The notes under the pieces are model-generated. The model saw only the letters and a list, made by a program, of their open reading frames with translations, did not search any database and had not been told where the DNA came from. A stretch of 64,000 nucleotides of DNA from Luteimonas fraxinea. Its GTDB lineage: Bacteria > Pseudomonadota > Gammaproteobacteria > Xanthomonadales > Xanthomonadaceae. Of this stretch, positions 9,086 to 54,070 are shown piece after piece. Made by a program: the position numbers and the translations under genes. The stretch is taken from assembly GCF_021233355.1 (NCBI RefSeq), contig NZ_CP089507.1, positions 3,349,001 through 3,413,000 on the forward strand. The letters run 5' to 3'. The stretch's first letter is position 1; every line of letters begins with the position of its first letter.

Positions 9086-9592
9086 TCACGGACCAACCAG
9101 CCCCACACGCCAGGCCGCCAGCTTCGCCTCGAACCCAAGCGCTGCATGTGCCGGACTCGTCGACGGCAGTCGCAAAAGATCGGGCACGACGTCCAGCGTC
9201 GGCAGCACATGCCGCCGGAACAGCGACTCCGCGGCCGCGCCGTTGAACCGGATACGCTCGATGCCCGGATAGCGCGCCAGCAGTCCACCGATATCGTTCG
9301 GCACTACGCTGCCCGCCTCGATGCGCGCATCAAGGCTTCCGGGACGCACGCATTCCCCAGCCACGTCCCACAGCGCCACGCCACACGCTGTCAGCCGCGC
9401 AAGCCGCGCGTCATACGACAGCGCCGGATCGAATCCGAACAGCGTTCCGACAATCGGCCAGAACAGATTCCGCGGATGGGCGTAGTAGCGATCTGCATCA
9501 AGCGACGCCACGCCCGGCATGCTGCCGAGTACCAGCACACGAGCACGGTCGTTGGCCACCGGCGCAAAGCTGCGGATCAAGGATCCGGTCAT
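9086..9592 (-). CDS. DNA-deoxyinosine/uracil glycosylase (UDG superfamily)
   Basis: Base-excision repair glycosylase of 168 aa, close to the size of the hypoxanthine-DNA glycosylase (UDG family 6) group. Motifs: VLVLGSMPGVASL (motif 1), YYAHPRNLFWPI, a central GVALWDV, and the C-terminal LPSTSPAHA that takes the place of the UDG H-S-P motif. It acts on deaminated bases in DNA. The start MTGSLIRSFAP is chosen because the family begins there; 86 further codons upstream are open but unlike the family. It is the first chromosomal gene beyond the distal end of the cassette array. Confidence 0.85.
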   Translation of the reverse strand: MTGSLIRSFAPVANDRARVLVLGSMPGVASLDADRYYAHPRNLFWPIVGTLFGFDPALSYDARLARLTACGVALWDVAGECVRPGSLDARIEAGSVVPNDIGGLLARYPGIERIRFNGAAAESLFRRHVLPTLDVVPDLLRLPSTSPAHAALGFEAKLAAWRVGLVGP

Positions 9593-9909
9593 CCGGCCAA
9601 CCGTCCACAGCAGCCGCAATACAAGACCATGCCCGCACGATCTCCAAGAACAGAATGCTGTCGCACGCACGACTCCCCGCAAAGCGCGGCCATCGTAACG
9701 GTGATCCAGATGCATCGCTGTCGAAGCAGGCGGGTCGCGCATCCGGCGTAAGCCTCGGCTTGACTCGGAAAGATCGGGTGACGCAAGCGCGCGTCTGAAC
9801 GAACTAAGTGCGCACAGCACCCCTGGCCGCCGGGAACGATCTCGGCGCACATCATCGCGCCGGAGAACACATCACAGCGCTAGAAGGTGAGCAAAGCTGC
9901 AGTGCGCGG
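9593..9909. other. Distal boundary of the integron array, no gene seen
   Basis: 317 bp between the last cassette gene and the glycosylase. There is no convincing ORF. A possible degenerate attC spans about 9,805-9,918: ACTAAGTGCGCAC on the left and GTGCGCGGCTAGGC on the right are partly complementary, and the stop of the last cassette gene falls in the right arm, as it does in several intact attC sites. The match is weak. Confidence 0.35.
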
Positions 9910-10335
9910 CTAGGCGTCGCGAGACTCCGATGGTGGCAATGGTTGGCGTCGGAACGCGTAGATCAACCACCCAAATCCGAACGTAATCAGGCTTGGCCCG
10001 ACGCCGAAACCAAGAATAAGCGAGGGGAACCCTGGCTGCCTTTCAACCACCAAGTTGTACAGCACCCATAGGACGACCGCTGTCCCAGCGATCAAGCACG
10101 TGAAGCCCAGGAGAGCCTGCGGAACACCCAACAAGATGCCCAGTATGCGTAATGCTGGACTCGGGTCTTCAGCCGCGCGCAACTCGGCACCGACATCGAG
10201 CCAGTACATGATTGCCAAAATCATCGCGGCAATGAATGTGAAGAAAAAGACGTCCGAGTGCATGTGCCTCAGTGCCAAAACTGACAGCACCATGGCCGCG
10301 AAAGCTGAGAGAAGTTTTCTGAAGGCGAGTCTCAT
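9910..10335 (-). CDS. Integron cassette 15: multi-pass membrane protein, unknown
   Basis: A 141-aa protein with about four hydrophobic segments (roughly residues 10-24, 29-46, 65-95 and 105-128) and a polar C-terminus ending SESRDA. I do not recognise a family. It is the cassette farthest from attI and therefore probably the oldest insertion. Its TAG stop falls in what may be the remnant of its own attC. Its start lies only 2 bp from attC14. Confidence 0.55.
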   Translation of the reverse strand: MRLAFRKLLSAFAAMVLSVLALRHMHSDVFFFTFIAAMILAIMYWLDVGAELRAAEDPSPALRILGILLGVPQALLGFTCLIAGTAVVLWVLYNLVVERQPGFPSLILGFGVGPSLITFGFGWLIYAFRRQPLPPSESRDA

Positions 10336-10337
10336 CG

Positions 10338-10396
10338 GTCCAACGCCTGAGTTAAGCCGCGCTGCGAAGCGGCGTCGGCTTTGACGAACTGTTAGG
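10338..10396 (-). repeat. attC14
   Basis: An imperfect palindrome with the arms GTTAAGCCGCGCTGCGAAGC and GGCGTCGGCTTTGACGAACTG. The right boundary carries CTGTTAGG; the left core reads GTCCAACGC instead of CCTAACGC, so the crossover core is non-consensus on the side joining cassette 15. Confidence 0.8.
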
Positions 10397-10640
10397 CCTC
10401 ACTCCGGCAGGCCCGAGGCTTGCGGCTTGAGCGATTGACGGCCGCACGGAATACGGCGCATGCCACTAACAAGCCAAGTGCCACCGCGGACATGACAACT
10501 GCAGGCAAGAGCCATGGCGGGGAGCCTTCTGCTGCTGCGATCAGGCGCGGCGCAGCGATGATTCCGACGATGGCGCCCGCTAGCGCGAGCACGTACACCA
10601 GTAGCGAGCGACGTGGTGAAAGTTTTTGGCTGTTACTCAT
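10392..10640 (-). CDS. Integron cassette 14: two-helix membrane protein, unknown
   Basis: An 82-aa protein. A short basic N-terminus (KLSPRRS) is followed by hydrophobic segments at about residues 13-36 and 43-66 and a basic C-terminal tail. No family is recognised. The TAA stop is supplied by the conserved CCTAAC of attC14, so the cassette's recombination site finishes the gene. The start is 22 bp from attC13. Confidence 0.55.
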   Translation of the reverse strand: MSNSQKLSPRRSLLVYVLALAGAIVGIIAAPRLIAAAEGSPPWLLPAVVMSAVALGLLVACAVFRAAVNRSSRKPRACRSEA

Positions 10641-10662
10641 AAGCCGAGAATGCTCCTGTGAG

Positions 10663-10721
10663 GCCTAACGCCTGAATTAAGGCGTGCTGCGAAGCGGCGT
10701 CGGCTTGAATGAATTGTTAGC
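10663..10721 (-). repeat. attC13
   Basis: A 59-bp element: GCCTAACGCCTGAATTAAGG, a short GC loop, then GTCGGCTTGAATGAATTGTT and AG. The core is intact on both sides. Confidence 0.9.
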
Positions 10722-11148
10722 GCGCACTGCCGCACCGTGCATGTTGCGGTGTAAAAGACTCAAGCCTCACGAAAGCTGGCTTGCCCTCAAACTCGAGCGG
10801 CTCAGGGATAACTGCTACTTGGTACTCAGCTAGAGTGTCGAATAGGCAGTTAGTACATTCCCGAGCAGCCAGAACTCGCAGGCGAGTGCCGGCCGCGAGT
10901 GGGAGGAGAAACGTCCTTTCCGGACCGCTGAATCCTGGATTCCAGATAGACACGTAGTCCGTCTTCTTGTCTTTCTCAAGCTTCGTTGCAACCCCATGGG
11001 CACGAATGGCTACAAGCAACTCACATGTGTCCCCGATAAGGTCGCGGTACTTAGGGGTTCCAGAGGTGTCCTTATATGTTTGCTTCATATCGCAACCAAG
11101 GAGCGAGATGGCGGCGATAAGTGCCACAAACGACCGAGATTGTTTCAT
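10717..11148 (-). CDS. Integron cassette 13: putative lipoprotein, unknown
   Basis: A 143-aa protein with a lipoprotein signal: MKQSRSF-ALIAAISLLGC, lipobox LLGC, lipidated Cys at residue 19. The mature part has four more cysteines, including an ECTNC pair, and no recognisable family. The ATG at 11,148 is preferred over upstream in-frame codons that lie inside attC12. The TAA stop is formed by attC13. Confidence 0.6.
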   Translation of the reverse strand: MKQSRSFVALIAAISLLGCDMKQTYKDTSGTPKYRDLIGDTCELLVAIRAHGVATKLEKDKKTDYVSIWNPGFSGPERTFLLPLAAGTRLRVLAARECTNCLFDTLAEYQVAVIPEPLEFEGKPAFVRLESFTPQHARCGSAR

Positions 11149-11153
11149 GTTCG

Positions 11154-11265
11154 CACTAACACTAGAGTTCAGCGGCGTTGTAGCGGGATGGGGACGAGGT
11201 GGCAAGCTCTACCTGCCGTCTGGGCCGCAGACCGATGCAACGTCGGCTGCAACGACTCGTTAGGC
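11154..11265 (-). repeat. attC12 (long form)
   Basis: A 112-bp attC. The outer arms GCACTAACACTAGAGTTCAG and CTGCAACGACTCGTTAGGCA keep CTAAC and GTTAG cores, but the central stem-loop is about 50 nt longer than in its neighbours. Variable-length central regions are normal in attC, so this cassette probably came from a different source array. Confidence 0.75.
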
Positions 11266-11298
11266 ACCAGCTAGTCCACCTGCGAGCAGCAACTAAGC

Positions 11299-11676
11299 TC
11301 ACATGAACCAACTGAAGTGTGTGTGGCTTACATAGCTACCCATGTGCAGCGAAGCTCGTTTCCCGCGAACGATCAGATAGAACGCAGGCATTCGCGGATC
11401 GCGGCCGTCGTATCGAAGGACCATGCTTCTTTGAAACCTGAAAGCTTCTACCGTCAACCCGGCATTGACATGCACCCATTCGTTCGAGCCCGGTGTTTCG
11501 GCACGAACTATGGTGACACACGTTTCAGGTTGCCGGCGAGGTGGATGCTCACATGTCCCGATGCCGATATCGATGGAGTAGCCGTTTCCGTCTCCGAAGT
11601 AGAGCGAATGAGATGCTCGGGCGCTACCGGAGATCAGAGACAGCAAGATCGCGATGATCCCGAAAACCCGAGTCAC
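11299..11676 (-). CDS. Integron cassette 12: secreted protein, unknown
   Basis: A 125-aa protein with a Sec signal peptide (MTRVFGIIAILLSLISGSARA, cleavage at about residue 21) and a mature domain with two cysteines (GTCEHPP and ETCVTIV), probably disulphide-linked in the periplasm. It is rich in beta-type sequence. No family recognised. The stop lies about 34 bp before attC12. Confidence 0.55.
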   Translation of the reverse strand: MTRVFGIIAILLSLISGSARASHSLYFGDGNGYSIDIGIGTCEHPPRRQPETCVTIVRAETPGSNEWVHVNAGLTVEAFRFQRSMVLRYDGRDPRMPAFYLIVRGKRASLHMGSYVSHTHFSWFM

Positions 11677-11695
11677 GATGAATCTCTCTCCGTGT

Positions 11696-11754
11696 GCCTG
11701 ACGGCTGAATTAAGCCGTGCCGCAAAGCGGCGTCGGCTTGAATAAATTGTTAGA
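11696..11754 (-). repeat. attC11
   Basis: A standard 59-bp element with CGGCTTGAATAAATTGTTAG on the right. The left core reads GCCTGACGG, giving GTCAGGC rather than GTTRRRY on the recombining strand, so one crossover point is mutated. Confidence 0.85.
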
Positions 11755-11762
11755 GGGGCAGC

Positions 11763-12138
11763 CTACGTGGCGTCGTGGCTGATTGCCAGGCTGCCGACGA
11801 ACCACAGGTACGCGGCTGCTGTGACAGTAAGCAGGGGCAGCGCGCCGATCCAGCGCCACCGAAGGGCCAAGACCGAAGGGGCAACTAGGGCGACCGTGAC
11901 GATGAGTCCAGCCAGTGGAAGTACCTGGCGAGTTGCGATGATTCAATGCCGGGGATGCCTGCCACAAAATATGAGGCCGCAAAGAGAAAGAAAGCAGAAA
12001 GGCCTGCGGCTGACGCCTTGAGCTTACGGTTCGGCGTCGCAGTGAGAGCGAAACCGGGAGGATAGCGGTGAGCGCGATGAGTCCGGGAATACCTTGTTCC
12101 GCGGCAAAGAGAGTGTGGTCCCAATCCATAACTGTCAC
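11763..12138 (-). pseudogene. Integron cassette 11: decayed membrane protein gene, two apparent frameshifts
   Basis: No single frame accounts for this cassette, but three consecutive frames join into a plausible multi-pass membrane protein. Frame one, from GTG 12,138 or ATG 12,129, reads MDWDHTLFAAEQGIPGLIAL. A second frame supplies ASAAGLSAFFLFAASYFVAG. A third supplies LPLAGLIVTVALVAPSVLAL and ends at TAG 11,763-11,765 just before attC11. The frame switches fall near 12,050 and 11,905-11,930. The three hydrophobic stretches in sequence make chance unlikely. Sequencing error at two places is the alternative. Confidence 0.6.
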
Positions 12139-12140
12139 TG

Positions 12141-12200
12141 CCCCTAACGCAAGAATTAAGCGTACCCGCGAAGCGAATTCGGCTCGAATTAATTAATAGG
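12141..12200 (-). repeat. attC10 (degenerate)
   Basis: The left core CCCTAACGC is intact, but the right arm reads CGGCTCGAATTAATTAATAGG instead of CGGCTTGAATGAATTGTTAG, so the inner conserved box of this site is eroded. The hairpin ACCCGCGAAGCGAATTCGG is imperfect. Confidence 0.75.
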
Positions 12201-12623
12201 GCGTATCGCGACTACCGAGATGTTGCGCGAAACGAATCAGGTAGCCATCCGGGTCCTGGACGAGGAACTCGCGCTGCCCTTTTTTAAATTGGATGCGGCC
12301 GAGTACCACGTGTCCTTGACTTCTCGAAAGATGGTCACGCCGGAAGCCAGCAAGGCAGATCGGACTGCATCGGCATCCACGACTCCGATCTGGAAGTTAA
12401 CGCCTCGCCCAAGCGGGCGATCAAGAGGGGTGACATTCCATCCGCGCTCGTGTTGTTGTTCAAGCATCAGCTGAGCTTGCCCGAGTTCGAGGTAGGCAAA
12501 TGGGGGTTCGTCTCGCTGAAATCGAACAGAAAAGCCGGCAGTTGTGTAGAAGCGAAGTGAGGTTTCAATCCGGTCCACCGTGAGTTCGGGTACGAGAGGG
12601 TTCCAGTAAGGTTCTTCGGGCAT
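12193..12623 (-). pseudogene. Integron cassette 10: VOC/bleomycin-resistance-like protein, frame interrupted at A-AAA-AAG
   Basis: The zero frame (12,237-12,623, 128 aa) begins MPEEPYWNPLVPELTVDRIE, with SLRFYTTAGFSVRFQRDEPP and AYLELGQAQLMLEQQ, an ordinary glyoxalase/bleomycin-resistance (VOC) fold. At 12,279-12,285 the coding strand reads A AAA AAG in frame. After it the zero frame continues into low-quality serine-rich sequence and stops. The minus-one frame continues the conserved VOC C-terminus GQREFLVQDPDGYLIRF and ends with TAA at 12,193-12,195 inside attC10. Either one base was lost from the homopolymer, or a minus-one slip restores a protein of about 143 aa. VOC cassettes are common in integrons. 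Confidence 0.7.
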
Positions 12624-12648
12624 GTGAGAGTCCGTGGATAATTGTGCG

Positions 12649-12759
12649 GCCTGACGCCTAAGTTAAGCCGAGACGCGTAGTGGAGCGAAGCGCATAGCAA
12701 GCTGTACCTTCCATGTGCTTTGCGGAACGAGGCGGCTTCAGCTTGAACGCATTGTTAGA
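12649..12759 (-). repeat. attC9 (long form)
   Basis: A 111-bp element. The left arm is GCCTGACGCCTAAGTTAAGC (core again GTCAGGC on the recombining strand) and the right arm is CAGCTTGAACGCATTGTTAG. About 60 nt of central sequence contain imperfect complementarity. Confidence 0.75.
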
Positions 12760-13201
12760 CCGCGCCGCCAGAAAGCCTGACCCAAGACTGCCGAAGCCCC
12801 ATAAGATGGACGATGCCAATCAATAGGCAGATTGAAGAACTCACGGCCCAGAACGTCATGCTGTTCCCGGGGAAGTAAGCCATGGCCGGCGCGAATGCGA
12901 TGCCACGAACAATGTAGATGGCGGTGATCACGGAGAGAGCGGTACGCCGCAACGGTAACTTGCGAATCAGACCGGCGCCGGAGAGAGCGTAGGCGCTCCA
13001 CCCAGTGAGAACGCTGGCAATGATTAGGGTAACGACGGTGGGGTACCAGTGACCGGCCAAGTGCAGCTGCGCCATTTGCTCTCCGGCCCCCAAGAGCCGA
13101 AACAGCGGAGCGCCCACCACCAGGCACGCTAAATGCATCAGCGCAGCGAGGCCGCTGAGGGCGCCGCCGAATACCAGAAGCTTGTTTGTTGGACTGGCCA
13201 T
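12755..13201 (-). CDS. Integron cassette 9: four-helix membrane protein, unknown
   Basis: A 148-aa protein with about four membrane segments: LLVFGGALSGLAALMHLACL, TVVTLIIASVLTGWSAYAL, TALSVITAIYIVRGIAF and FWAVSSSICLLIGIVHLMGL. The arrangement recalls small integral proteins of unknown function often seen in cassettes. It starts 15 bp from attC8, and its TAA stop comes from attC9. No family assigned. Confidence 0.6.
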   Translation of the reverse strand: MASPTNKLLVFGGALSGLAALMHLACLVVGAPLFRLLGAGEQMAQLHLAGHWYPTVVTLIIASVLTGWSAYALSGAGLIRKLPLRRTALSVITAIYIVRGIAFAPAMAYFPGNSMTFWAVSSSICLLIGIVHLMGLRQSWVRLSGGAV

Positions 13202-13215
13202 GTTGCTCCCCTGCG

Positions 13216-13274
13216 GCCTAACGCTTGAATTAAGCCGTGCCGCGAAGCGGCATCGGCTTGAATGAATTGTTAGG
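13216..13274 (-). repeat. attC8
   Basis: GGCCTAACGCTTGAATTAAG, loop CGCGAAGCGG, CATCGGCTTGAATGAATTGT and TAGG. Intact cores; a single-base difference in the left arm relative to the commonest form. Confidence 0.9.
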
Positions 13275-13664
13275 GCGCAGGCGACGATGCCACGCCAAGG
13301 AAAAGCACACGCCAACGCTGGCGAAAACAAGGTGCAGCCCCCATGCCCGTGAACAGTACCACTCCCAGTTGATGGGGTAGTTGGAGAGCACGAAGAGCCC
13401 GAGCCAAACCCCAACTGGGCCGGATACGGCCCCAACAAGAAGGCGAACCGCCAACGAACGGTTGCCACGCAACGCGAGTTGGAAAGGCACCGCAACGGCG
13501 AACAAAAACATCGCGGTGAGAACAATGCCGACCACCGCAGCACCCAACGTGTCTAGCGAAGGTCTAAACGGCCATGTGCCAGGAAAAAAGAGCAGCGCCC
13601 AAGCCGCGAAAGCGCATGACCCAAGTAGTGCCGATTGGACAATGAAGAACCGAACAAGCTTCAT
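13230..13664 (-). CDS. Integron cassette 8: four-helix membrane protein with attC-encoded tail
   Basis: A 144-aa protein with hydrophobic segments near residues 5-28, 37-62, 70-90 and 108-124. The reading frame does not stop at the attC boundary but continues through attC8, so the C-terminus PNNSFKPMPLRGTA is encoded by the recombination site. No family is recognised for the membrane domain. The start MKLVRFFIVQ lies 5 bp from attC7. Confidence 0.6.
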   Translation of the reverse strand: MKLVRFFIVQSALLGSCAFAAWALLFFPGTWPFRPSLDTLGAAVVGIVLTAMFLFAVAVPFQLALRGNRSLAVRLLVGAVSGPVGVWLGLFVLSNYPINWEWYCSRAWGLHLVFASVGVCFSLAWHRRLRPNNSFKPMPLRGTA

Positions 13665-13669
13665 CTGCG

Positions 13670-13728
13670 CCCTAACGCCTGAGTTAAGCCGCGCCGCGAA
13701 GCGGCGTCGGCTTGAATGAATTGTTAGG
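13670..13728 (-). repeat. attC7
   Basis: GCCCTAACGCCTGAGTTAAG, CGCCGCGAAGCGGCG, TCGGCTTGAATGAATTGTTA and GG. Canonical cores and near-perfect central hairpin. Confidence 0.92.
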
Positions 13729-14055
13729 CCCCGGCCGAGCAACCTTGACCTGCCCCTCTAGAGTAGGACCGCGGAGAGTTGCAGTCTGGTTTGGACGGGA
13801 GAACAGAATACGTGCGTCCCGGAATTCTCCGCCGTCAATGAGCCTTGCAGTACCAAGTGCGACTGCATCTTTCTGACCCGGAGTGCGGTACACAAGCTCC
13901 CGGTGAATGTACTGAACTGGAAAGATGACACCGCCGCCTGAAGAAACGTACTCCAAGAGGAACAGCGTAAGTTCTTGGCCGGCGCCAAGCTCGGCAACGA
14001 TGCCTGACGTGAGTGGGGGAAGCTCGTGGAAGTATTCGCTGTCAGGAGTTGCCAT
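13684..14055 (-). CDS. Integron cassette 7: hypothetical protein with attC-encoded tail
   Basis: A 123-aa soluble protein without signal or membrane segment, with beta-rich sequence (ELTLFLLEYVSSGGGVIFPV, then YIHRELVYRTPGQ). No family recognised. The frame reads into attC7, which supplies the last 14 residues PNNSFKPTPLRGAA and the TAA. The start is 15 bp from attC6. Confidence 0.55.
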   Translation of the reverse strand: MATPDSEYFHELPPLTSGIVAELGAGQELTLFLLEYVSSGGGVIFPVQYIHRELVYRTPGQKDAVALGTARLIDGGEFRDARILFSRPNQTATLRGPTLEGQVKVARPGPNNSFKPTPLRGAA

Positions 14056-14070
14056 AGTGCTTTCCCGGGG

Positions 14071-14129
14071 GCCTAACGATTGAGTTAAGCCGTGCCGCGA
14101 AGCGGCATCGGCTTGAATGAGTTGTTAGA
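14071..14129 (-). repeat. attC6
   Basis: GCCTAACGATTGAGTTAAGC, CGCGAAGCGG, CATCGGCTTGAATGAGTTGT and TAG. Cores intact; GATTG replaces GCCTG next to the left core. Confidence 0.9.
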
Positions 14130-14175
14130 CGCGCGCCTGCAGACGTCAAATCCCGACGCTTCTTGCCAAGCAGCG

Positions 14176-14601
14176 TCAAGGAAGTTGGACATGCAGTCTC
14201 CACTCAGGCGAACACTCAGCGTAGCCGAGCTGATTTGAGTACTCAGAGATGTAACTGTAGCCATGGCCGCGCTGCGAAAGATCAAGCAAGAACGCGCAGA
14301 AGGCCTCCAGAACCTCCGCACTACCGCGCATCCTGAGAATACTTCGCTGCGTCCAATCAATCATTGTTGGATAGGAATCATCCTGGTTCTGAAGCGAGGT
14401 GAAGAGCTCCGGTTGGTTAGGATCTTTTGTGATCTCAATGCCGATGCGCGAAGACGTCTGAAGCATTTCTGGCTCTCCGCTGCTGATGGCTGATCGCAAC
14501 TGTCGGGCGAATGACTCGTAGTCAGACGGACTACCACGCACCACAAAGTCATCGATGAGGCCGTTGGAGCGATGCATCTGTCGATGTTCGAGATCAATCA
14601 T
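14176..14601 (-). CDS. Integron cassette 6: hypothetical cytoplasmic protein
   Basis: A 141-aa soluble protein with mixed alpha/beta composition. Notable segments: SPSDYESFARQLRSAI, a TMIDWTQRSILRMRGSAEVL helix and a C-terminal YISEYSNQLGYAECSPEWRL. Its size, acidity and position next to an Imm32-like cassette would suit an immunity or antitoxin-type protein, but I cannot assign it to a family. The stop is about 45 bp before attC6; the start is 7 bp from attC5. Confidence 0.55.
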   Translation of the reverse strand: MIDLEHRQMHRSNGLIDDFVVRGSPSDYESFARQLRSAISSGEPEMLQTSSRIGIEITKDPNQPELFTSLQNQDDSYPTMIDWTQRSILRMRGSAEVLEAFCAFLLDLSQRGHGYSYISEYSNQLGYAECSPEWRLHVQLP

Positions 14602-14607
14602 TCGCGC

Positions 14608-14666
14608 GCCTAACGCCTGAATTAAGCCGCGCCACGAAGTGGCGTCGGCTTGAATGAATTGTTAGG
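14608..14666 (-). repeat. attC5
   Basis: GCCTAACGCCTGAATTAAGC, CGCCACGAAGTGGCG, TCGGCTTGAATGAATTGTTA. The two base changes in the stem (C to A, G to T) compensate each other and keep it paired. Confidence 0.92.
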
Positions 14667-14949
14667 GCGCATCCTTGGATAAGCCGTGCTTATGCGCCCA
14701 ATCTTGAGTCCAACCATAGAGCTTCAGGTGATGGACCTGCCTGCAGCCGGAAGACTGCTCTTGCAGCAACATTGACTCTGTAAGCTCCGCGCCACCCCAT
14801 GACTCGCTAAAGAGATGGCTGTCTTCACACTCGCCTTTTTCGACGCGCTGACGCAAAGAAGAGATCGCTTTCTCAAGGGCTTCGAGGCCGGCCAAGTCTG
14901 CGTGCAGGTAAACCACATCTCCCGACTGTTCTGCGACGATGCTCAGCAT
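14662..14949 (-). CDS. Integron cassette 5: Imm32-like immunity protein
   Basis: A 95-aa acidic protein matching what I know of the Imm32 family. An N-terminal beta strand is followed by LAGLEALEKAISSLRQRVEK, the SWGGAELTES motif and a C-terminal VHHLKLYGW strand. Imm proteins neutralise cognate polymorphic toxins delivered by neighbouring cells. No toxin gene is nearby, so it would be an orphan immunity gene. The TAA is supplied by attC5. The call is from motif recognition; a profile search would settle it. Confidence 0.6.
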   Translation of the reverse strand: MLSIVAEQSGDVVYLHADLAGLEALEKAISSLRQRVEKGECEDSHLFSESWGGAELTESMLLQEQSSGCRQVHHLKLYGWTQDWAHKHGLSKDAP

Positions 14950-14973
14950 TTGGTCTCCAAGATCGCGAATGCG

Positions 14974-15033
14974 CCCTAACGCCTGAATTAAGCCGCGCCG
15001 CGAAGCGACGTCGGCTTGAATGAATTGTTAGCC
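14974..15033 (-). repeat. attC4
   Basis: GCCCTAACGCCTGAATTAAG, CGCCGCGAAGCGACG, TCGGCTTGAATGAATTGTTA and GC. Canonical cores. Confidence 0.92.
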
Positions 15034-15042
15034 CGCGGCGCG

Positions 15043-15666
15043 CTACCGGGGATAGCTTTCCTCATAAGGATGATCTCCGGCTGTACCGAGCCACGGTGTA
15101 AGTGATGACAATGGTCTTTCTGACGCTGTGAAAGAGACATTGATGTTGTCCTGTGTGCACCGCGCTGGGTGGCGATTGCCGCTATGAACTATGTTTCCAG
15201 TAACTACTACCTGAAGGGCACTGCCTTTTTGGGTGATGTTGATCTGGCCGCGTTCGATGGTGCCGGAGCAGGCAGCATGCGGCCATGCTGAGCTACCTTT
15301 TGTGTGCACCACGACCACCGAATCGTCAATGGCAATAGCACCTGGGTCTGGCCCTGAGTTCTTGAACCAGATCGTCAACTTCTCAAACACTTCATCGTCC
15401 ACCGTAAGCGCCCCACCTGGGGAATAGAAGCGGTGAGCAACAACCGTGCCTTGTCCAGATGACAGCCTATGAGCAAATAACCCCATCTCGGAGCGGTCTA
15501 GTGCAGCTACATTCTCGGGTCGCACGCCCAGTTCAGAAAGATAATCTGGATCTGCTAGCACAGCATTATGGACGAAGAATCCATCGTTCCGCGCCTTGCC
15601 CTGACCCATGACCGTGCAGGAGGACAAGAACGAAGCGATTAAGAAGACGGCGGCGTGCTTAGTCAT
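15043..15666 (-). CDS. Integron cassette 4: putative lipoprotein, unknown
   Basis: A 207-aa protein, the longest cassette product. Lipoprotein signal MTKHAAVFLIASFLSSC with the lipobox LSSC and lipid-modified Cys at residue 17. The mature region is beta-rich and has further cysteines (HAACSG and ARCTQD). No family recognised. It starts 5 bp from attC3. Confidence 0.58.
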   Translation of the reverse strand: MTKHAAVFLIASFLSSCTVMGQGKARNDGFFVHNAVLADPDYLSELGVRPENVAALDRSEMGLFAHRLSSGQGTVVAHRFYSPGGALTVDDEVFEKLTIWFKNSGPDPGAIAIDDSVVVVHTKGSSAWPHAACSGTIERGQINITQKGSALQVVVTGNIVHSGNRHPARCTQDNINVSFTASERPLSSLTPWLGTAGDHPYEESYPR

Positions 15667-15671
15667 GAGCG

Positions 15672-15730
15672 GGCTAACGCCTGAATTAAGCCGTGCCGCG
15701 AAGCGGCATCGGCTTGAATGAATTGTTAGG
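15672..15730 (-). repeat. attC3
   Basis: GGCTAACGCCTGAATTAAGC, CGCGAAGCGG, CATCGGCTTGAATGAATTGT and TAGG. Canonical cores. Confidence 0.92.
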
Positions 15731-16187
15731 CGACAAACCTTGCAACTACGAACGCGCCGACTGAGAAGGCTGCCAGCAAACCGTAGAAGTTAAGAATGTG
15801 CCACCGATTGCGATTGCCGAGAATAGAGAAGACACGAGGCACCGACGGATACTGGAGCTTGCGACCAAAACTGTGGTGGTAGCCAGAAAGTAGATCTGGT
15901 GCTGCTGAGTCGGCCAAGTACCTGTCGATGCGCGCGGAGATATCTGTGGTGTGTTGAATCGCCGTGTCTTGAAACGACTTGTAGATGAGTTCTAAGTAGA
16001 TGAAGGCAACAAGCAAAGCCAAGTTGGAGAGTGCAATCAGGTCTTGGCCTTGCGACACAGAGAAAGCGATGACAGCCGATGACGTAAGAAGTGCCCAGTT
16101 CTTGATCTTGAAGATGTGGTCATCGCACTTGTCGATGAATCCAAGTGTCTGGGCGAAATCTTCTTTCAGAGCTTCGATTGGCTGCAT
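15726..16187 (-). CDS. Integron cassette 3: membrane protein, unknown
   Basis: A 153-aa protein with two adjacent N-terminal membrane helices (about residues 30-68), a soluble central region of about 60 residues and a final helix (LNFYGLLAAFSVGAFVVARF). Two helices flanking a cytoplasmic domain is a layout also found in membrane effectors of defence systems, but no specific family is identifiable. The TAA stop is from attC3; the start is 5 bp from attC2. Confidence 0.55.
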   Translation of the reverse strand: MQPIEALKEDFAQTLGFIDKCDDHIFKIKNWALLTSSAVIAFSVSQGQDLIALSNLALLVAFIYLELIYKSFQDTAIQHTTDISARIDRYLADSAAPDLLSGYHHSFGRKLQYPSVPRVFSILGNRNRWHILNFYGLLAAFSVGAFVVARFVA

Positions 16188-16192
16188 TTGTC

Positions 16193-16252
16193 GCCTAACA
16201 CCAGAATTAAGCCGACCCGCGAAGCGGGTTCGGCTTGAATGAATTGTTAGCC
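16193..16252 (-). repeat. attC2
   Basis: CGCCTAACACCAGAATTAAG, ACCCGCGAAGCGGGTT, CGGCTTGAATGAATTGTTAG. The central stem differs from the other sites but is fully complementary. Confidence 0.92.
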
Positions 16253-16253
16253 G

Positions 16254-16601
16254 TCAACTCGGACGGTACCCGTCAAACTCCCACAGCAACTCGTGATTGA
16301 GAACTTGGGCAACCTCCTGCCAACTCGGACGGGAAGCGTGCGCAAGCAGACGATCGACCGCACGCTCTACCTGAAGCCAAGAGAAAGAGTCAACCACGAG
16401 TGTGCCGCGTCCCCAGCCAAACATCTTCGACTCTGCCAAAGCACTTGGTGTGGCAACAGCAAAAGAGAAGTCATCTCCGGCCTTACCGGAGCTAGGCCCA
16501 ATCTTAGCTAGCACTTGGACAAAGCAATGCCTTGGATCCGGAGGAAGCTCTCCGGGAGCAAGATCGGAGCTAGAGAGACTGAGTAGTTTGGGAAAGATCA
16601 T
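16254..16601 (-). CDS. Integron cassette 2: Imm8-like immunity protein
   Basis: A 115-aa protein resembling the Imm8 family: FVQVLAKIGPSSGKAGDDFS near the N-terminus, SKMFGWGRGTLVVDSFSW in the middle, and the diagnostic end SWQEVAQVLNHELLWEFDGY. Imm8 proteins protect against polymorphic nuclease or deaminase-type toxins. No toxin partner lies in the array, so any benefit would be protection from toxins of competitors. TGA lies one base before attC2. As the second cassette it should be well expressed if Pc is active. Confidence 0.68.
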   Translation of the reverse strand: MIFPKLLSLSSSDLAPGELPPDPRHCFVQVLAKIGPSSGKAGDDFSFAVATPSALAESKMFGWGRGTLVVDSFSWLQVERAVDRLLAHASRPSWQEVAQVLNHELLWEFDGYRPS

Positions 16602-16605
16602 TGAC

Positions 16606-16664
16606 GGCTAACGCCTGAGTTAAGCCGTGCCGCGAAGCGGAATCGGCTTGAATGAATTGTTAGG
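16606..16664 (-). repeat. attC1
   Basis: GGCTAACGCCTGAGTTAAGC, CGCGAAGCGG, AATCGGCTTGAATGAATTGT and TAGG. The attC closest to attI. Confidence 0.92.
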
Positions 16665-16905
16665 TGTCATTGGCATTGATGCCAGAACGAGCGCCTATGC
16701 AGAGAAAGATTAGTCCCGCGACTGAGGCGGCGATGGCCCCCAATTTGCTGATACCAATATGGGTGTGAAGTTGCCAAAGGACTAAGCCAGCCACAAGAGC
16801 GAGCGCTCCCAACGTTGTCCAAGCCCCAATTGGCCCGTTGTCGATCTGGCAGAAACGCCCGTCATCGCGGTTTATCCATCTCCGAAGCCTCGACAGACTC
16901 TGCAT
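16660..16905 (-). CDS. Integron cassette 1: two-helix membrane protein, unknown
   Basis: An 81-aa protein beginning MQSLSRLRRWINRDDG, then membrane segments at about residues 27-45 and 52-70 (IGAWTTLGALALVAGLVLW and LGAIAASVAGLIFLCIGA). The ATG at 16,905 lies 11 bp inside the cassette junction. Longer in-frame starts upstream would begin inside attI and are rejected. The TAA stop is supplied by attC1. As the first cassette it is the most recent acquisition. No family recognised. Confidence 0.58.
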   Translation of the reverse strand: MQSLSRLRRWINRDDGRFCQIDNGPIGAWTTLGALALVAGLVLWQLHTHIGISKLGAIAASVAGLIFLCIGARSGINANDT

Positions 16906-16910
16906 TTGAC

Positions 16911-16917
16911 ACCTAAC
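16911..16917 (-). other. attI: attI core, junction with cassette 1
   Basis: On the minus strand the sequence is GTTAGGT, a perfect GTTRRRY core. It separates the non-palindromic intI leader from the first cassette. The sequence beyond it towards intI (16,918-17,078) has no attC-like arms, as expected for attI. Crossover is expected between G and TT. Confidence 0.75.
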
Positions 16918-16951
16918 TAGTATTCGACCGCGGATGTGGGGTGTTGTACCG

Positions 16952-16981
16952 AGTATGCGTTGCAGTCGGCTCGTTCGCCAA
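16952..16981 (-). promoter_or_regulatory. Candidate cassette promoter Pc
   Basis: On the minus strand, TTGGCG (16,976-16,981) and CATACT (16,952-16,957) are separated by 18 bp, a fair sigma-70 match, about 46 bp upstream of the first cassette start and within the attI region. In known integrons Pc lies in attI or in intI. The match is not strong enough to be certain. Confidence 0.35.
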
Positions 16982-17053
16982 GCGGGGATTTCCGACTTGA
17001 GATCAATGGCTTGTCGCAATCCTCCAGGCTGTAGCCCGGTCTAGCCTGCCTGC

Positions 17054-17100
17054 GTTATCCGGCGCAGTGAGGCGCGACGTGTTATCCGACGAAAGTGAGG
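17054..17100 (+). repeat. Direct repeat in the intI leader
   Basis: GTTATCCGGCGCAGTGAGG (17,054-17,072) and GTTATCCGACGAAAGTGAGG (17,081-17,100) lie 27 bp apart and straddle the likely intI start. They could be an operator, an accessory IntI-binding repeat, or a chance duplication of the ribosome-binding region. Confidence 0.5.
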
Positions 17101-18086
17101 TGGTAACAGGGGTGGTCGCTGCGCCCCGCTTGCTGGATCAAGTCCGTGCGTGTTGTCGGGTACGGCATCTGAGTCTGCGCACCGAACAGGCATATGTCGG
17201 TTGGATCCGACGTTTCATTCTGGCCAACGGCAAGCGGCATCCGCGGGACATGGACGGGCATGATGTCTCGGCGTTCCTCACGGTGCTGGCCACGAGGCAT
17301 CGGGTTGCGGCGGGTACGCAGAACCAGGCGCTGGCGGCGCTGCTGTTTCTGTATCGGGACGTGCTGGGCGTCGAATTGCCGTGGATGGATGCGGTCATCC
17401 GGGCAAAACGGCCACGGCGAGTGCCGGTGGTGCTGTCCGTGGATGAGGTGCAGCGCCTGTTGCTGGCGATGGAGGGACGCACCGCGCTGCTGGCCGGTCT
17501 GCTGTACGGCACGGGGATGCGCCTGATGGAGGCGCTGCGGCTGCGGGTGAAAGATGTCGATTTCGCGCAGCGGCAGATCGTGGTGCGTGAGGGAAAGGGC
17601 GGAAAGGATCGCCATGTGCCGCTGCCCGAGCGTCTGGCGCCTAGTCTGCGCGACGAGATCGCACGTGCGGGACATGTGCACGCGGGTGATCTCGAGGCCG
17701 GTCATGGCGCGGTCTGGCTGCCGTACGCCCTGGCACGCAAGTATCCCGGGGCGGCGCGTGAGCGTGGCTGGCAGTACGTGTTTCCTGCGCAGCGGCTGTC
17801 GCGTGATCCACGCGACGGCATGATCCGCCGCCATCATCTCGACGAATCGGTGCTGCAGCGTGCTGTGCGTAGCGCACGGCTGCGCGCTGGCATCCTGAAA
17901 CCTGCGAGTTGCCATACGCTGCGGCACTCGTTCGCGACGCATCTGCTGGAAGCGGGTCAGGACATCCGGACGATCCAGGCCCTGCTGGGCCACAAGGATC
18001 TGTCGACGACACAGATCTACACCCATGTACTCAATCGGGGCGGGTTGGGGGTTCGCAGTCCGTTGGACCGGCTGCCAGCGGCATGA
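17079..18086 (+). CDS. intI: Integron integrase (tyrosine recombinase)
   Basis: Recombines attC with attI to capture or excise cassettes. With the GTG at 17,079 (preceded by GAGG at 6 nt) it is 335 aa, and its N-terminus then aligns with that of IntI1; GTG at 17,067 is an alternative. The N-terminal domain has LSLRTEQAYVGWIRRF. Catalytic residues are present: Arg148 in GTGMRLMEAL, Lys in REGKGGKDRH, HTLRHSFATH, LLGHKDLSTTQ and Tyr in IYTHVLNRGG. The IntI-specific insertion is present as LARKYPGAARERGWQYVF to DPRDGMIRRHH; it separates IntI from XerC/D. No truncation or frameshift. No LexA box is evident upstream. Its stop overlaps the comEC start. Confidence 0.95.
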   Translation: MLSDESEVVTGVVAAPRLLDQVRACCRVRHLSLRTEQAYVGWIRRFILANGKRHPRDMDGHDVSAFLTVLATRHRVAAGTQNQALAALLFLYRDVLGVELPWMDAVIRAKRPRRVPVVLSVDEVQRLLLAMEGRTALLAGLLYGTGMRLMEALRLRVKDVDFAQRQIVVREGKGGKDRHVPLPERLAPSLRDEIARAGHVHAGDLEAGHGAVWLPYALARKYPGAARERGWQYVFPAQRLSRDPRDGMIRRHHLDESVLQRAVRSARLRAGILKPASCHTLRHSFATHLLEAGQDIRTIQALLGHKDLSTTQIYTHVLNRGGLGVRSPLDRLPAA

Positions 18087-20464
18087 CAGCTGCGCGGATC
18101 CCGGGTGTGGGACTCGGCATCGCCGCCGCGCTGGTACTGGGTGCGATCGCCTGTCTGCAACTACCCGTATTGCCGCCCCGGTGGGTGATGGCACTTGGGC
18201 TTGCGATCGGGTTTGCGGCATGGATTTGGCAGCGCGGTGTCGGACGCGCGGTTGGCGCGTTTCTGTTCGGTGCCGCGCTGTGCGGGCTGCACGCGGCATA
18301 CGCCTTGTCCATCCAGTTGCCGGCGTCGATGGAGCGGGGCGATTTCGTGGTGAGCGGGCAGATCGCCGGGTTGCCGGTGCATGAGCCGCAGCGCACGGCA
18401 TTTCTGTTTCGCGTTGCCGATGACGACCCGGTGCCGAAACCCTTGCGCGGTCGGCTGCTGCGTCTGTCCTGGTACGACGATCGGCGCGAGGGAACAGATC
18501 TTCGGCGGCATGCGCTGCACGCCGGCAGCGACTGGACACTCACCGCGCGGCTGCGTGCGCCGCGCGGGCTGCGCAATCCGGGTTGGTTCGATGGCGAGAA
18601 ACGGGCGATGGCGCAGCGGGTCACGGCGGTGGGCTATGTGCGCAGTGCCGAACCGGTCACGCGTCTCGATACGGGCGGCGGCGTGGACCGGTGGCGCGAG
18701 CGGGTCGCGACGCGGATCGATGCGGTCGTCGAGCGCGACAGTGCGCGCTATGTGCGGGCGCTCGCGATCGGTGATACGCGCGGGCTCGGCGATCTGGACT
18801 GGGAGGCATTGCGCGCGACCGGGCTGACGCATCTGATCGCGATTTCCGGTTTCCACGTCGGCATGGTCGGTGGTTTCTTCGCGCTGGTCGCCACCGGTAT
18901 GTGGTGGTGCCTGCCATGGCTCGGCCGCTGGCTGCCAAGACCGCAGGCGGCGGCGATCGTCGCGTTGCTGGCGAGCACGGTCTACGCGGCGGTTGCCGGA
19001 TGGGAGCTGCCCACCGTGCGCACGGTGCTGATGATCGGCGTGGTCGTGATCGCGCGGTTGGCGCGACGGCATCTGCGCATCGCCGATTCGCTGGCCTATG
19101 CCGCCATCGCTGTCGTGCTGGTCGATCCGATGTCGGTGCTGTCGGCGGGCTTCCGGCTGAGCTTCACCGGCGTCGCGTGGCTGGTCTGGTGCCTGCCCGA
19201 TGCGCGTGAGTTGTCGAAGCTGCGCGGCCTGCTGGCCTCGCAATGGGTCGCGACCATCGGCCTGTTGCCACTGACCGTGATCCTGTTCGGGCAAGCCTCG
19301 CTGGCCGGGCCGATCGCCAATCTCGTCGCGATTCCGTGGTGGAGTCTGGTCGTGGTGCCGCTGGCGCTTGTCGGCACCGGGCTGGAGGCGATCCACAGCG
19401 GCGCCGGCGACTGGGCCTGGCGCAGCGCGGCGTGGGCGTTCGATCTGAGTTGGCCGCTGTTCGACTGGCTCGCCGCGAGTCCGATTTCGCTGTGGTGGCT
19501 GCCCGAGCCGCACTGGCTGGCGCTGCCGTTCGCACTGCTGGCCGCGTTCTGGATGCTGTTGCCGCGCGGGGTGCTGGGGAAATGGCTGGCGACCCTGCTG
19601 TGGTTGCCGCTGCTGTGGCCGGATCGACAGCTGCCCCGCGAGGGCGAAGCCGAGCTGGTTGTTTTCGATGTGGGGCAGGGCCTGTCGGTGCTGATCCGCA
19701 CCGCGCATCACGCGGTGCTCTACGACACCGGCCCGGCGATACCGGAGGCCTATGACGCTGGCGAACGCGTCGTGGTGCCGGCGCTGCACGCGCTGGGCGT
19801 GCGGCGACTGGACGCGATCGTCGTCAGCCATGGCGATGCCGACCATGCGGGCGGATTCGGTGCCGTGCAGCGACGCTTTGCCGCGCCGGTGGTCTTCGCG
19901 CCGCAATGGGATCGTGTGCCGGGCGCATCGCCATGCCTGATGGGGAGTGCCTGGCGGATGGACGGCGTGACGTTCCGCTTCCTGCATCCCGACCTGCACT
20001 TCCCGGCGTTCCGCAATCCGTCGAGCTGTGTGCTGCGGGTCGAGACCGCACATGGCGCGGCACTGCTGCCGGGCGACATCGACGATCTGGTCGAACGGCT
20101 GCTGGTCCGGCGCGATGCCGCCTCGCTCGCAGCCGATGTCGTGATCGCCGCGCACCACGGCAGCCGCAGTTCGTCCGATCCCGCATTCGTGCGCGCGTCC
20201 GGCGCCGCGGTCGCGATGATGTCGGCCGGTCACGGCAATCGCTTCGGGCATCCGCATGAGGAAGTCGTCGAGCGCTGGTCGAAGGCGGAGACTGCGGTGG
20301 GCAGCACCGCGGGCGGCGGGGCGACCCGGTTCCGGCTGCAGGCCGGTGGACTGGTGGTCACGCAGGAACGCGTGCGCCGGCCGCGCTTGTGGGATGCCGC
20401 GCTGCAGGCCGAGGCGCGGGCCGGGGCGGCCGGGCAGGCTGGGCTATCCTATTCCCCGGATTGA
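18083..20464 (+). CDS. comEC: DNA internalization-related competence protein ComEC/Rec2
   Basis: Inner-membrane channel for single-stranded DNA uptake. The 793-aa product has the full order: N-terminal DUF4131 with membrane helices (residues 1-170), the competence domain with GLTHLIAISGFHVGMVGG and about eight helices (210-500), and a C-terminal metallo-beta-lactamase-like domain with VVFDVGQGLSVLI, VVSHGDADHAGGF and VIAAHHGSRSS. The ATG overlaps the intI TGA (ATGA), so it is translationally coupled to the integron integrase. An in-frame extension into intI is rejected. ExbB/ExbD genes follow. Confidence 0.95.
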   Translation: MTAARIPGVGLGIAAALVLGAIACLQLPVLPPRWVMALGLAIGFAAWIWQRGVGRAVGAFLFGAALCGLHAAYALSIQLPASMERGDFVVSGQIAGLPVHEPQRTAFLFRVADDDPVPKPLRGRLLRLSWYDDRREGTDLRRHALHAGSDWTLTARLRAPRGLRNPGWFDGEKRAMAQRVTAVGYVRSAEPVTRLDTGGGVDRWRERVATRIDAVVERDSARYVRALAIGDTRGLGDLDWEALRATGLTHLIAISGFHVGMVGGFFALVATGMWWCLPWLGRWLPRPQAAAIVALLASTVYAAVAGWELPTVRTVLMIGVVVIARLARRHLRIADSLAYAAIAVVLVDPMSVLSAGFRLSFTGVAWLVWCLPDARELSKLRGLLASQWVATIGLLPLTVILFGQASLAGPIANLVAIPWWSLVVVPLALVGTGLEAIHSGAGDWAWRSAAWAFDLSWPLFDWLAASPISLWWLPEPHWLALPFALLAAFWMLLPRGVLGKWLATLLWLPLLWPDRQLPREGEAELVVFDVGQGLSVLIRTAHHAVLYDTGPAIPEAYDAGERVVVPALHALGVRRLDAIVVSHGDADHAGGFGAVQRRFAAPVVFAPQWDRVPGASPCLMGSAWRMDGVTFRFLHPDLHFPAFRNPSSCVLRVETAHGAALLPGDIDDLVERLLVRRDAASLAADVVIAAHHGSRSSSDPAFVRASGAAVAMMSAGHGNRFGHPHEEVVERWSKAETAVGSTAGGGATRFRLQAGGLVVTQERVRRPRLWDAALQAEARAGAAGQAGLSYSPD

Positions 20465-53317: not shown

Positions 53318-53866
53318 GCGTGTCCCCTGGCGAAGCCGGAACGGGGTGTCTGTAGCCGACAACGCGACGGTTCCCCGGGTGCGGCCAAGACGGGTCGGCA
53401 GATGGCGCGAGACACGATACGGAGCGTCCGGAACGGGGAGGAGAGGCGCATTCGGTATTGTGACGGTGGACCCGTTCGGGAGCATAGGGCAAGCGTCGTG
53501 CACGTGGTGCATTGCGTGGGGTGATCGATGCGCGTCGAGTCAGAGACGCCATCCCAGCGGACGTTGGAGGCGCCTCTCAGCAGTCGGATGGCGGGTCGGC
53601 CATTTTGATCTCGGCTATCGAATCGATGATGCGCGAGGTTGCGCGGATGTTCGGGCGCTCCGATGAAGCGGCGCTTCGCGTCTGTCAGTTGTTGCGCGCT
53701 CGTCTACCGGGGGATCGACTCGGCCCATCCATGGGCCTCGTCCCTTCGGGGGAAGTCTGCGGCTGTCCGGATCGGCAATCCTGCCGATCCGTCGAATCCG
53801 CGGGGGGTTCTCATCCGCCGCTCTGCGCCAGAAACGCAAAACGCCCCTTCCGGGGCGTTGCGAATC
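53318..53866. other. 549-bp gap upstream of the PP2C gene and downstream of tRNA-Ser; paralogous repeat
   Basis: No gene supported. From about 53,546 it resembles 62,660-63,022: ATCCCAGCGGACG, CCATTTTGATCTCGGCTA, GGCCCATCCATGGGCC, GCGGCTGTCCGGAT, GTCGAATCCGCG, and CCAGAAACGCAAAACGCCCC, in the same order. The last 35 bp (53,830-53,864) form the tRNA-Ser terminator. Confidence 0.6.
53830..53864 (-). terminator. Terminator of tRNA-Ser(CGA)
   Basis: CGCAACGCCCCGGAAGGGGCGTTTTGCG on the minus strand, a long GC stem with the run TTTT. It extends the CGCCAGA/TCTGGCG dyad of the tRNA end. Confidence 0.75.
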
Positions 53867-53957
53867 TGGCGGAGAGGGGGGGATTCGAACCCCCGAGGCG
53901 CTATAAACGCCTGCCTGATTTCGAGTCAGGTACATTCAACCGCTCTGCCACCTCTCC
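53867..53957 (-). tRNA. tRNA-Ser(CGA)
   Basis: 91 nt, class II. Acceptor GGAGAGG/CCTCTCC, D-arm GGCAGAGCGGTTGAATG, anticodon loop GACTCGAAATC with CGA, long variable arm GCAGGCGTTTATAGCGCCTC, T-arm CGGGGGTTCGAATCCCCCC, encoded CCA. Confidence 0.95.
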
Positions 53958-54070
53958 AGATGGTCCCCGAGCGCCTCGCGGCGTCCGGGGGCGCAATCAT
54001 ACGGGCGCTCCGCGTGGGCGACAAGCGTGGCGTTACACTGGCCGGCCCGTTCACCTCCACGGCGCTGTCC

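Follow-up and report, generated by a model that had tools for sequence, protein, structure and literature searches.

A complete chromosomal integron of Luteimonas fraxinea with an integrase gene that overlaps comEC and two further attI-headed arrays without intI

The Luteimonas fraxinea window analyzed here, a stretch of 64,000 nucleotides (C1:3349001-3413000 of genome G000, a single 4.0-Mb contig), carries at positions 9910-18086 what is, judged from its sequence, a complete sedentary chromosomal integron, whose integrase gene intI overlaps comEC, the gene for a DNA-uptake channel; two other attC arrays in the same genome begin with an attI-like head and have no neighboring intI. We consider it rather likely that this is a sedentary integron in which IntI is translationally coupled to ComEC and in which one IntI serves three platforms in trans. 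The region contains a gene of the integron-integrase family with its catalytic residues, an attC array, an attI site and a fixed chromosomal position in the divergent spacer between a minus-strand uracil-DNA-glycosylase-like gene and plus-strand comEC, with flanks that are alike in those relatives in which the far flank was reached (L006, L007, L159 and L160). The GC content is 0.54-0.58 over the cassette array (2-kb steps), versus 0.66-0.70 in the adjoining steps. The points of interest, on a chromosomal integron of known kind, are the comEC overlap and the attI-headed arrays without intI.

The intI and comEC reading frames overlap

On the plus strand, intI (17067-18086, 339 residues) ends in an ATGA at 18083-18086 that is also the start of comEC (18083-20464, 793 residues; TIGR00361 at 313 bits, with PF03772, PF13567 and PF00753). 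The ATG at 18083 is the only candidate comEC start listed from 120 nt before the intI stop to the start of the comEC alignment. After removal of duplicates, 25 distinct comEC-linked intI loci were available for comparison. All 14 loci from the genus have a 4-bp overlap of the two frames, either ATGA or GTGA, and the gap at the other 11 is 1 nt (seven loci), 3 nt (two) or 8 nt (two); intI and comEC are on the same strand, overlapping or abutting, in 25 of 25. It should be noted that comEC starts were read from the frame, that alternative starts occur further down at several loci and, in L018, L063, L076 and L081, also further up, inside intI. As read from these junctions, intI and comEC are built as one predicted translationally coupled unit.

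A first-pass annotation of this DNA had suggested that the comEC locus might be independent or still active, given that many sequenced xanthomonad integrons lie beside ilvD with broken intI genes. The data do not support a one-off independent locus or a xanthomonad oddity: intI stands directly upstream of comEC, by coordinates, in 14 of 52 genus genomes (40 of which have intI at E <= 1e-60), and further genera share the arrangement. Among the best 80 of 557 named loci, comEC directly follows intI in 10, and of 217 genomes sampled from the family, 142 have intI at E <= 1e-90 and at least nine show the adjacency (G000, G020, G062, G063, G104, G154, G190, G230 and G250), from four genus groups. 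Outside the family, intI was found at E <= 1e-60 in 139 of the 369 genomes of a class sample, and no comEC match was found within flanks of up to 1.5 kb at 29 sampled class loci (two of them of the same family).

At the 86 distinct intI loci without comEC, conserved neighbors were grouped and named by Pfam on one representative per group. Convergent with intI are an Lrp/AsnC regulator (11 loci, one of them 1.2 kb off), mfd (8), GH94 (7), ilvD (6), an unnamed family (6), and an S9 peptidase, VanY and MgtE (2 each), with some of these open reading frames (ORFs) 0.6-1.1 kb from intI; co-directional with it are a DinG-like helicase (2) and an MFS-acyltransferase (2, one 0.9 kb off). The nameable families other than comEC lie mostly tail to tail with intI, and a tight co-directional junction appears to be a mark of comEC loci, be it exclusive to them or not. 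Where intI stands beside an Lrp/AsnC-regulator-like gene in G037, G039 and G040, it is 21-25 kb from the contig start, and this distance is similar in several genus genomes with that neighbor.

These neighborhoods bear on the idea that an ordinary sedentary integron came to stand before comEC by accident, with an overlap that reflects genome compaction and has no regulatory meaning. In its favor, intI occupies several other loci in the same genus, and in each of the two co-directional non-comEC families there is one locus where the first possible start of the neighboring ORF falls inside the intI end (-7 for the DinG-like helicase of L026, -10 for the MFS-acyltransferase of L024). Accident nevertheless seems unlikely to us, because all 25 linked junctions are tight, ranging from a 4-bp overlap to a gap of 8 nt, despite glycosylase-like/comEC spacers that measure 238-3056 bp between match ends where they are empty (238-415 bp in four genomes), and because four or more genus groups of the family show the linkage.

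An intact integrase, a delimited attI and fourteen attC sites

IntI matches TIGR02249 at 474 bits (cutoff 265) and aligns over 314 residues with the solved IntI4 structure (2a3v; E 1.3e-91); its start is either 17067 or a later GTG. Residues R152, K180, H283, R286, H309 and Y318, which we take to be the catalytic residues in role and motif placing, are all present. The first-pass description of an intact integrase on an unbroken platform away from ilvD, with comEC as its neighbor, is borne out.

The GTTRRRY attI core proposed at that stage also holds: it is GTTAGGT, at 16911-16917 on the minus strand. When the window was aligned with four relatives (L005, L006, L007 and L018), the sequences were found to be alike from the core CTAAC (GTTAG as read on the cassette strand) toward intI and unrelated on the cassette side. 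This break at the core delimits attI and means that the first cassettes differ between the five species; attI together with the region upstream of intI, alike in all five, spans 16911-17066 on the minus strand.

Two attC models were used. R1 was made with 12 of the 60-bp sites of the window itself, and is hence circular for those, and R2 with 11 long sites, namely attC 9 and 10 sites of relatives. With R1, 13 sites were found on the minus strand (E <= 3.4e-9), all within 10338-16665, and its other nine matches (E <= 1) are the plus-strand mirror of the same sites; even with filters off, the long site at 11154-11265 was missed (8.2 bits over 11211-11265). With R2 this site scores 68 bits (E 1.8e-20) and the remaining 13 are found as well, the weakest being 12142-12201 (25.2 bits, E 2e-6), and all 14 sites seen in the first reading are thereby recovered. 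Measured in model coordinates, 12 of the sites have a length of 60 bp and two of 112 bp. As a control, no attC (E <= 0.05) was found at 11 genus comEC loci without intI (L144-L153 and L163). Of the 15 genes that had been placed between attC sites, 14 ORFs are indeed bounded by them, and the last one (9910-10335) has no attC behind it.

Indirect signs suggest that the integron may be active: dN/dS, the ratio of nonsynonymous to synonymous change, is low in nine pairs of comEC-linked IntI (0.039-0.201; own script, Nei-Gojobori counting), the sequence after attI differs between the five species, and few cassette proteins (4 of 15) have a near-full-length relative among the fetched loci. Shared cassettes also occur in different arrays and positions.

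Two further platforms carry an attI-like head and no intI

Genome G000 contains further attC clusters at C1:1260349-1262343 (six sites) and C1:1953605-1958392 (seven sites). When the attI of the window was used as a query, it matched three places in the genome, namely itself and the first-cassette side of each extra cluster, the two attI-like heads being matched at 76% over 107 bp (E 2.4e-12) and 89% over 45 bp (E 6.6e-10). The resulting platforms are L178 (C1:1259979-1262343), beside a kinase-like gene, and L179 (C1:1953605-1958935), beside an M3-peptidase-like gene, both genes being named by inspection. No second integron integrase was found in G000, the best intI match at L178/L179 having an E value of 0.014.

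Matches to attI at E <= 1e-4, a threshold that would miss more distant sites, occur in 5 of the 52 genus genomes: G000 and G045 (three each), G012 and G013 (two each) and G031 (one). The extra sites head arrays of seven and nine attC in G045, nine in G012 and nine in G013, and at E 1e-3 no intI was found in these four extra loci. The L178 platform recurs in G045 (kinase-like gene 97%) and the L179 platform in G045 and G012 (M3-peptidase-like gene 92-93%). In G045, cassette DNA is common to the comEC array and an attI-only array (93% over 603 bp; 95% over 260 bp); G012 and G045 have cassette DNA in common at the corresponding platform (89% over 513 bp), and such DNA is also common across platforms of different species. 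Shared cassettes and attI heads fit one IntI that serves several platforms, and the IntI of G000 probably does so in trans.

Additional attC clusters away from intI were observed at G012:C23:11639-14090, G031:C5:145141-148031 and G006:C1:986034-988273, where the attI search gave no match (the clusters were not inspected by eye). An argument from decay of intI-less arrays, based on G047 (no intI at E <= 1e-60, three attC of 51-60 bits), was dropped because equally low scores (49-63 bits) are seen in G006 for the array next to an intI that looks intact.

Empty sites and the history of the locus

The order pirin, glycosylase-like gene, comEC is kept in 10 of the 11 genus loci without intI at comEC, both pirins being present in six of those 10; the eleventh, L163 (G039), has neither pirin nor glycosylase-like gene within its stretch. 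The 10 empty gaps contain no clear intI relic (a single 27% match, E 0.009), and a loss of intI there is for this reason not supported.

With 111 IntIs in the tree, nine changes of state are needed to account for the linked 25, seven of them forced by well-supported branches, and a single clade of comEC-linked IntIs is rejected in the approximately unbiased test (p-AU 4.8e-5). In the integrase phylogeny, which the first-pass annotation had called for, the comEC-linked IntIs are thus polyphyletic. A comEC tree of 41 rows (30 from the genus and 11 linked ones from outside, an uneven sample) needs seven changes of the linkage label. For L101/L102 (G030/G035) and L063/L173, which combine related comEC with divergent IntI, the last 99 nt of intI are 90% alike; as a background, 51 of 4155 pairs reach at least 88% at the intI 3' end (body 60-70%). 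No such 3' end is shared by the other eight of the 10 pairs of this kind, the pair groups for this comparison having been picked after the comEC tree was seen, and pairwise identity profiles examined for replacement of the intI body are mixed. The trees and profiles would accommodate either an old locus with intI bodies replaced in place or several separate fillings.

The second of these histories is close to a scenario in which the glycosylase-like/comEC spacer is a hot spot colonized several times by unrelated integrons. The scattering of linked IntIs over several clades and the empty sites without a clear relic are what one would expect of a hot spot. Separate landings, on the other hand, are not expected to remake the same tight stop/start junction, and the 3' end shared by 2 of the 10 pairs hints at replacement of the intI body in place, even if the other eight give no such hint; on balance we judge repeated colonization, too, to be unlikely.

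When L005 is compared with L006, identity is 96-99% over the final 800 nt of intI and 79-97% in the comEC windows, which suggests a recent exchange of the intI region between the two species.

A possible link between DNA uptake and cassette capture

From the overlap, the intact IntI, the attI-headed arrays and the shared cassettes, all read directly in the DNA, we infer what the coupling might do. One transcript would make IntI and ComEC, and the integrase and the import channel for single-stranded DNA (ssDNA) would appear together; incoming ssDNA would fold its attC sites, IntI would insert the cassette at attI, and the single IntI would also serve the two intI-less platforms in trans. The cassettes are oriented opposite to intI and comEC and run away from attI. 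More tentatively, and with less confidence than we place in the coupling itself, the system may be a competence-coupled, distributed integron in which capture is switched on with DNA uptake and not by the SOS response alone, and in which one integrase feeds several attI-headed arrays.

To our knowledge, how environmental integrons acquire cassettes is largely an open question, and genes for uptake and capture that are joined in several genera would allow a direct test of cassette acquisition in environmental bacteria.

Several observations weigh against an integrase that is coupled to ComEC and serves three platforms. Competence is putative, dprA being present in G000 as it is in 10 of 14 control genomes. 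The linkage is not required, since 26 of the 40 genus genomes with intI carry it solely at other loci, and the rejection of a single clade of linked IntIs counts on the same side. The linked intI of G013 (L018, from a draft assembly) is frameshifted, with two pieces in different frames; the catalytic tyrosine of the linked IntI of G017 (L092/L155, on C45) is replaced by histidine; and arginine stands in the presumed lysine column in 6 of 25 linked IntIs (and in 7 of 86 others). No LexA-type box was found by five patterns in 16601-17300 and no sigma-70-like consensus promoter in 16600-18400, and the latter interval has four terminator-like matches, two of them inside intI, versus 1.0 in shuffled sequences.

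The loss of the tyrosine also enters into another unlikely explanation, that the coupling benefits comEC, which would be under the intI promoter and depend on an unbroken intI frame even if IntI itself had no function: the linked frame of G017 is open up to the comEC overlap despite the lost tyrosine, with a second intI on another contig, but the tyrosine is kept in 24 of 25 linked IntIs, dN/dS is low in all nine pairs, and the frameshift in L018, unless it is a sequencing error, means that the frame is not open in every case.

Comparison with known integrons

Integrons of Xanthomonas are located at ilvD, most lack a full integrase, and clusters of attC sites lacking integron integrases (CALINs) are found at conserved loci, according to the available part of Colombi et al. 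2025 (PMC12444791). As in that system, we find a Lysobacteraceae chromosomal integron with IntI, attI and array and with extra attC clusters at conserved loci. In Xanthomonas, again according to PMC12444791, most strains have a truncated intI or none, and with two exceptions the gene lies on the downstream side of ilvD, whereas in L. fraxinea an intact intI overlaps comEC. The L. fraxinea genome falls within the genus group of Luteimonas sp. 9C and not within Xanthomonas. The gene next to intI in the window is comEC and not ilvD; ilvD-family neighbors, where they occur in the present set (the six loci mentioned above), are convergent with intI, unlike comEC.

The two other G000 arrays resemble CALINs in being attC clusters without a neighboring intI that could be served in trans. 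What sets them apart is an attI-like head immediately ahead of the first cassette and a location that they share with platforms of one or two related species; attI is unmentioned for the Xanthomonas CALINs in the available part of PMC12444791. No description of attI sites without an integrase was found in the literature searched, which took in few subscription papers and no preprints. Judging from the attI-headed arrays, genuine platforms that depend on an integrase in trans may be hidden among the arrays counted as CALINs.

The substrate that IntI recombines is single-stranded attC in its folded form, and in Vibrio cholerae transforming ssDNA induces IntIA via the SOS response and cassettes are inserted at attI, as stated in the available parts of PMC8946536 and PMC8191803. 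The V. cholerae superintegron is likewise a sedentary chromosomal integron with a resident integrase, and capture of ssDNA at attI has been shown there, according to the same parts of these papers. Its described link to uptake runs through SOS induction, and a linkage of intI with comEC goes unnamed in those parts, whereas in L. fraxinea the two genes overlap. In the literature searched, as far as its available text goes, integrons and comEC are named together where "comEC" belongs to a journal DOI (PMC9024848) or occurs in a remark on DNA uptake.

Cassettes and flanking genes

The 15 cassette ORFs, which are mechanical calls, and the attC sites are all on the minus strand and are given here in order from attI, with R1 scores for attC sites unless stated otherwise. 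Cassette proteins were compared with those of 179 fetched loci, both copies of the window region being left out; near-full-length relatives were found for four of the 15 (ORFs 1, 2, 9 and 13), and nine of the 15 had no match among these loci.

ORF 1 (16660-16905, 81 residues) matches a Fulvimonas integron locus at 46% over 72/83 and is followed by attC 1 (16606-16665; 84.8 bits). ORF 2 (16254-16601) is Imm8-like (PF15586, 58.6 bits, cutoff 27), the sole Pfam family above cutoff among the cassettes, and is 90% alike to a Luteimonas sp. 9C cassette near the far end of that array; attC 2 is at 16193-16252 (85.5 bits). ORF 3 (15726-16187) gave a weak match to PDC-M50A (E 0.0028), the only one when 10 of the 15 ORFs were run through PADLOC, and precedes attC 3 (15672-15731; 90.6 bits). 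ORF 4 (15043-15666), without a Pfam match, and attC 4 (14974-15033; 87.7 bits) are followed by ORF 5 (14662-14949), Imm32-like below the Pfam cutoff, and attC 5 (14608-14667; 89.3 bits), and these by ORF 6 (14176-14601) and attC 6 (14071-14130; 85.3 bits). ORF 7 (13684-14055) extends into attC 7 (13670-13729; 89.7 bits) and ORF 8 (13230-13664) into attC 8 (13216-13275; 90.7 bits).

ORF 9 (12755-13201) matches a stretch beside the comEC-linked intI of G030 at 83% over 147/148 and precedes the long attC 9 (12649-12760; 46.1 bits). Next come ORF 10 (12237-12623), glyoxalase-like below the Pfam cutoff, with attC 10 (12142-12201; 62.9 bits), ORF 11 (11710-12138) with attC 11 (11696-11755; 79.8 bits), and ORF 12 (11299-11676) with the second long site, attC 12, which is the one at 11154-11265 that was found by R2. 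ORF 13 (10717-11148), 72% alike over 144/144 to a stretch of a Pseudoxanthomonas wuyuanensis array, precedes attC 13 (10663-10722; 79.6 bits), and ORF 14 (10392-10640) precedes attC 14 (10338-10397; 75.3 bits), beyond which ORF 15 (9910-10335) ends the array.

Cassette-strand ORFs that read through their own attC (window 13230-13275, 13684-13729 and 14988-15140) have a common C-terminal tail like NNSFKPTPLRGAA. This shared tail, being encoded by attC, leads to false protein matches between cassettes; ORFs 7 and 8 gave matches via short stretches only, some of which we read as attC-encoded tails.

On the left, the array is flanked by the uracil-DNA-glycosylase-superfamily-like gene (9086-9850, minus strand), assigned by synteny and by a PF03167 match of 22.3 bits, just below the cutoff of 24.3; its real start is probably lower than 9850. 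Elsewhere in the window, an sX4 small RNA match (RF02223) at 53809-53971 contains a transfer RNA match at 53870-53957 on the same strand.

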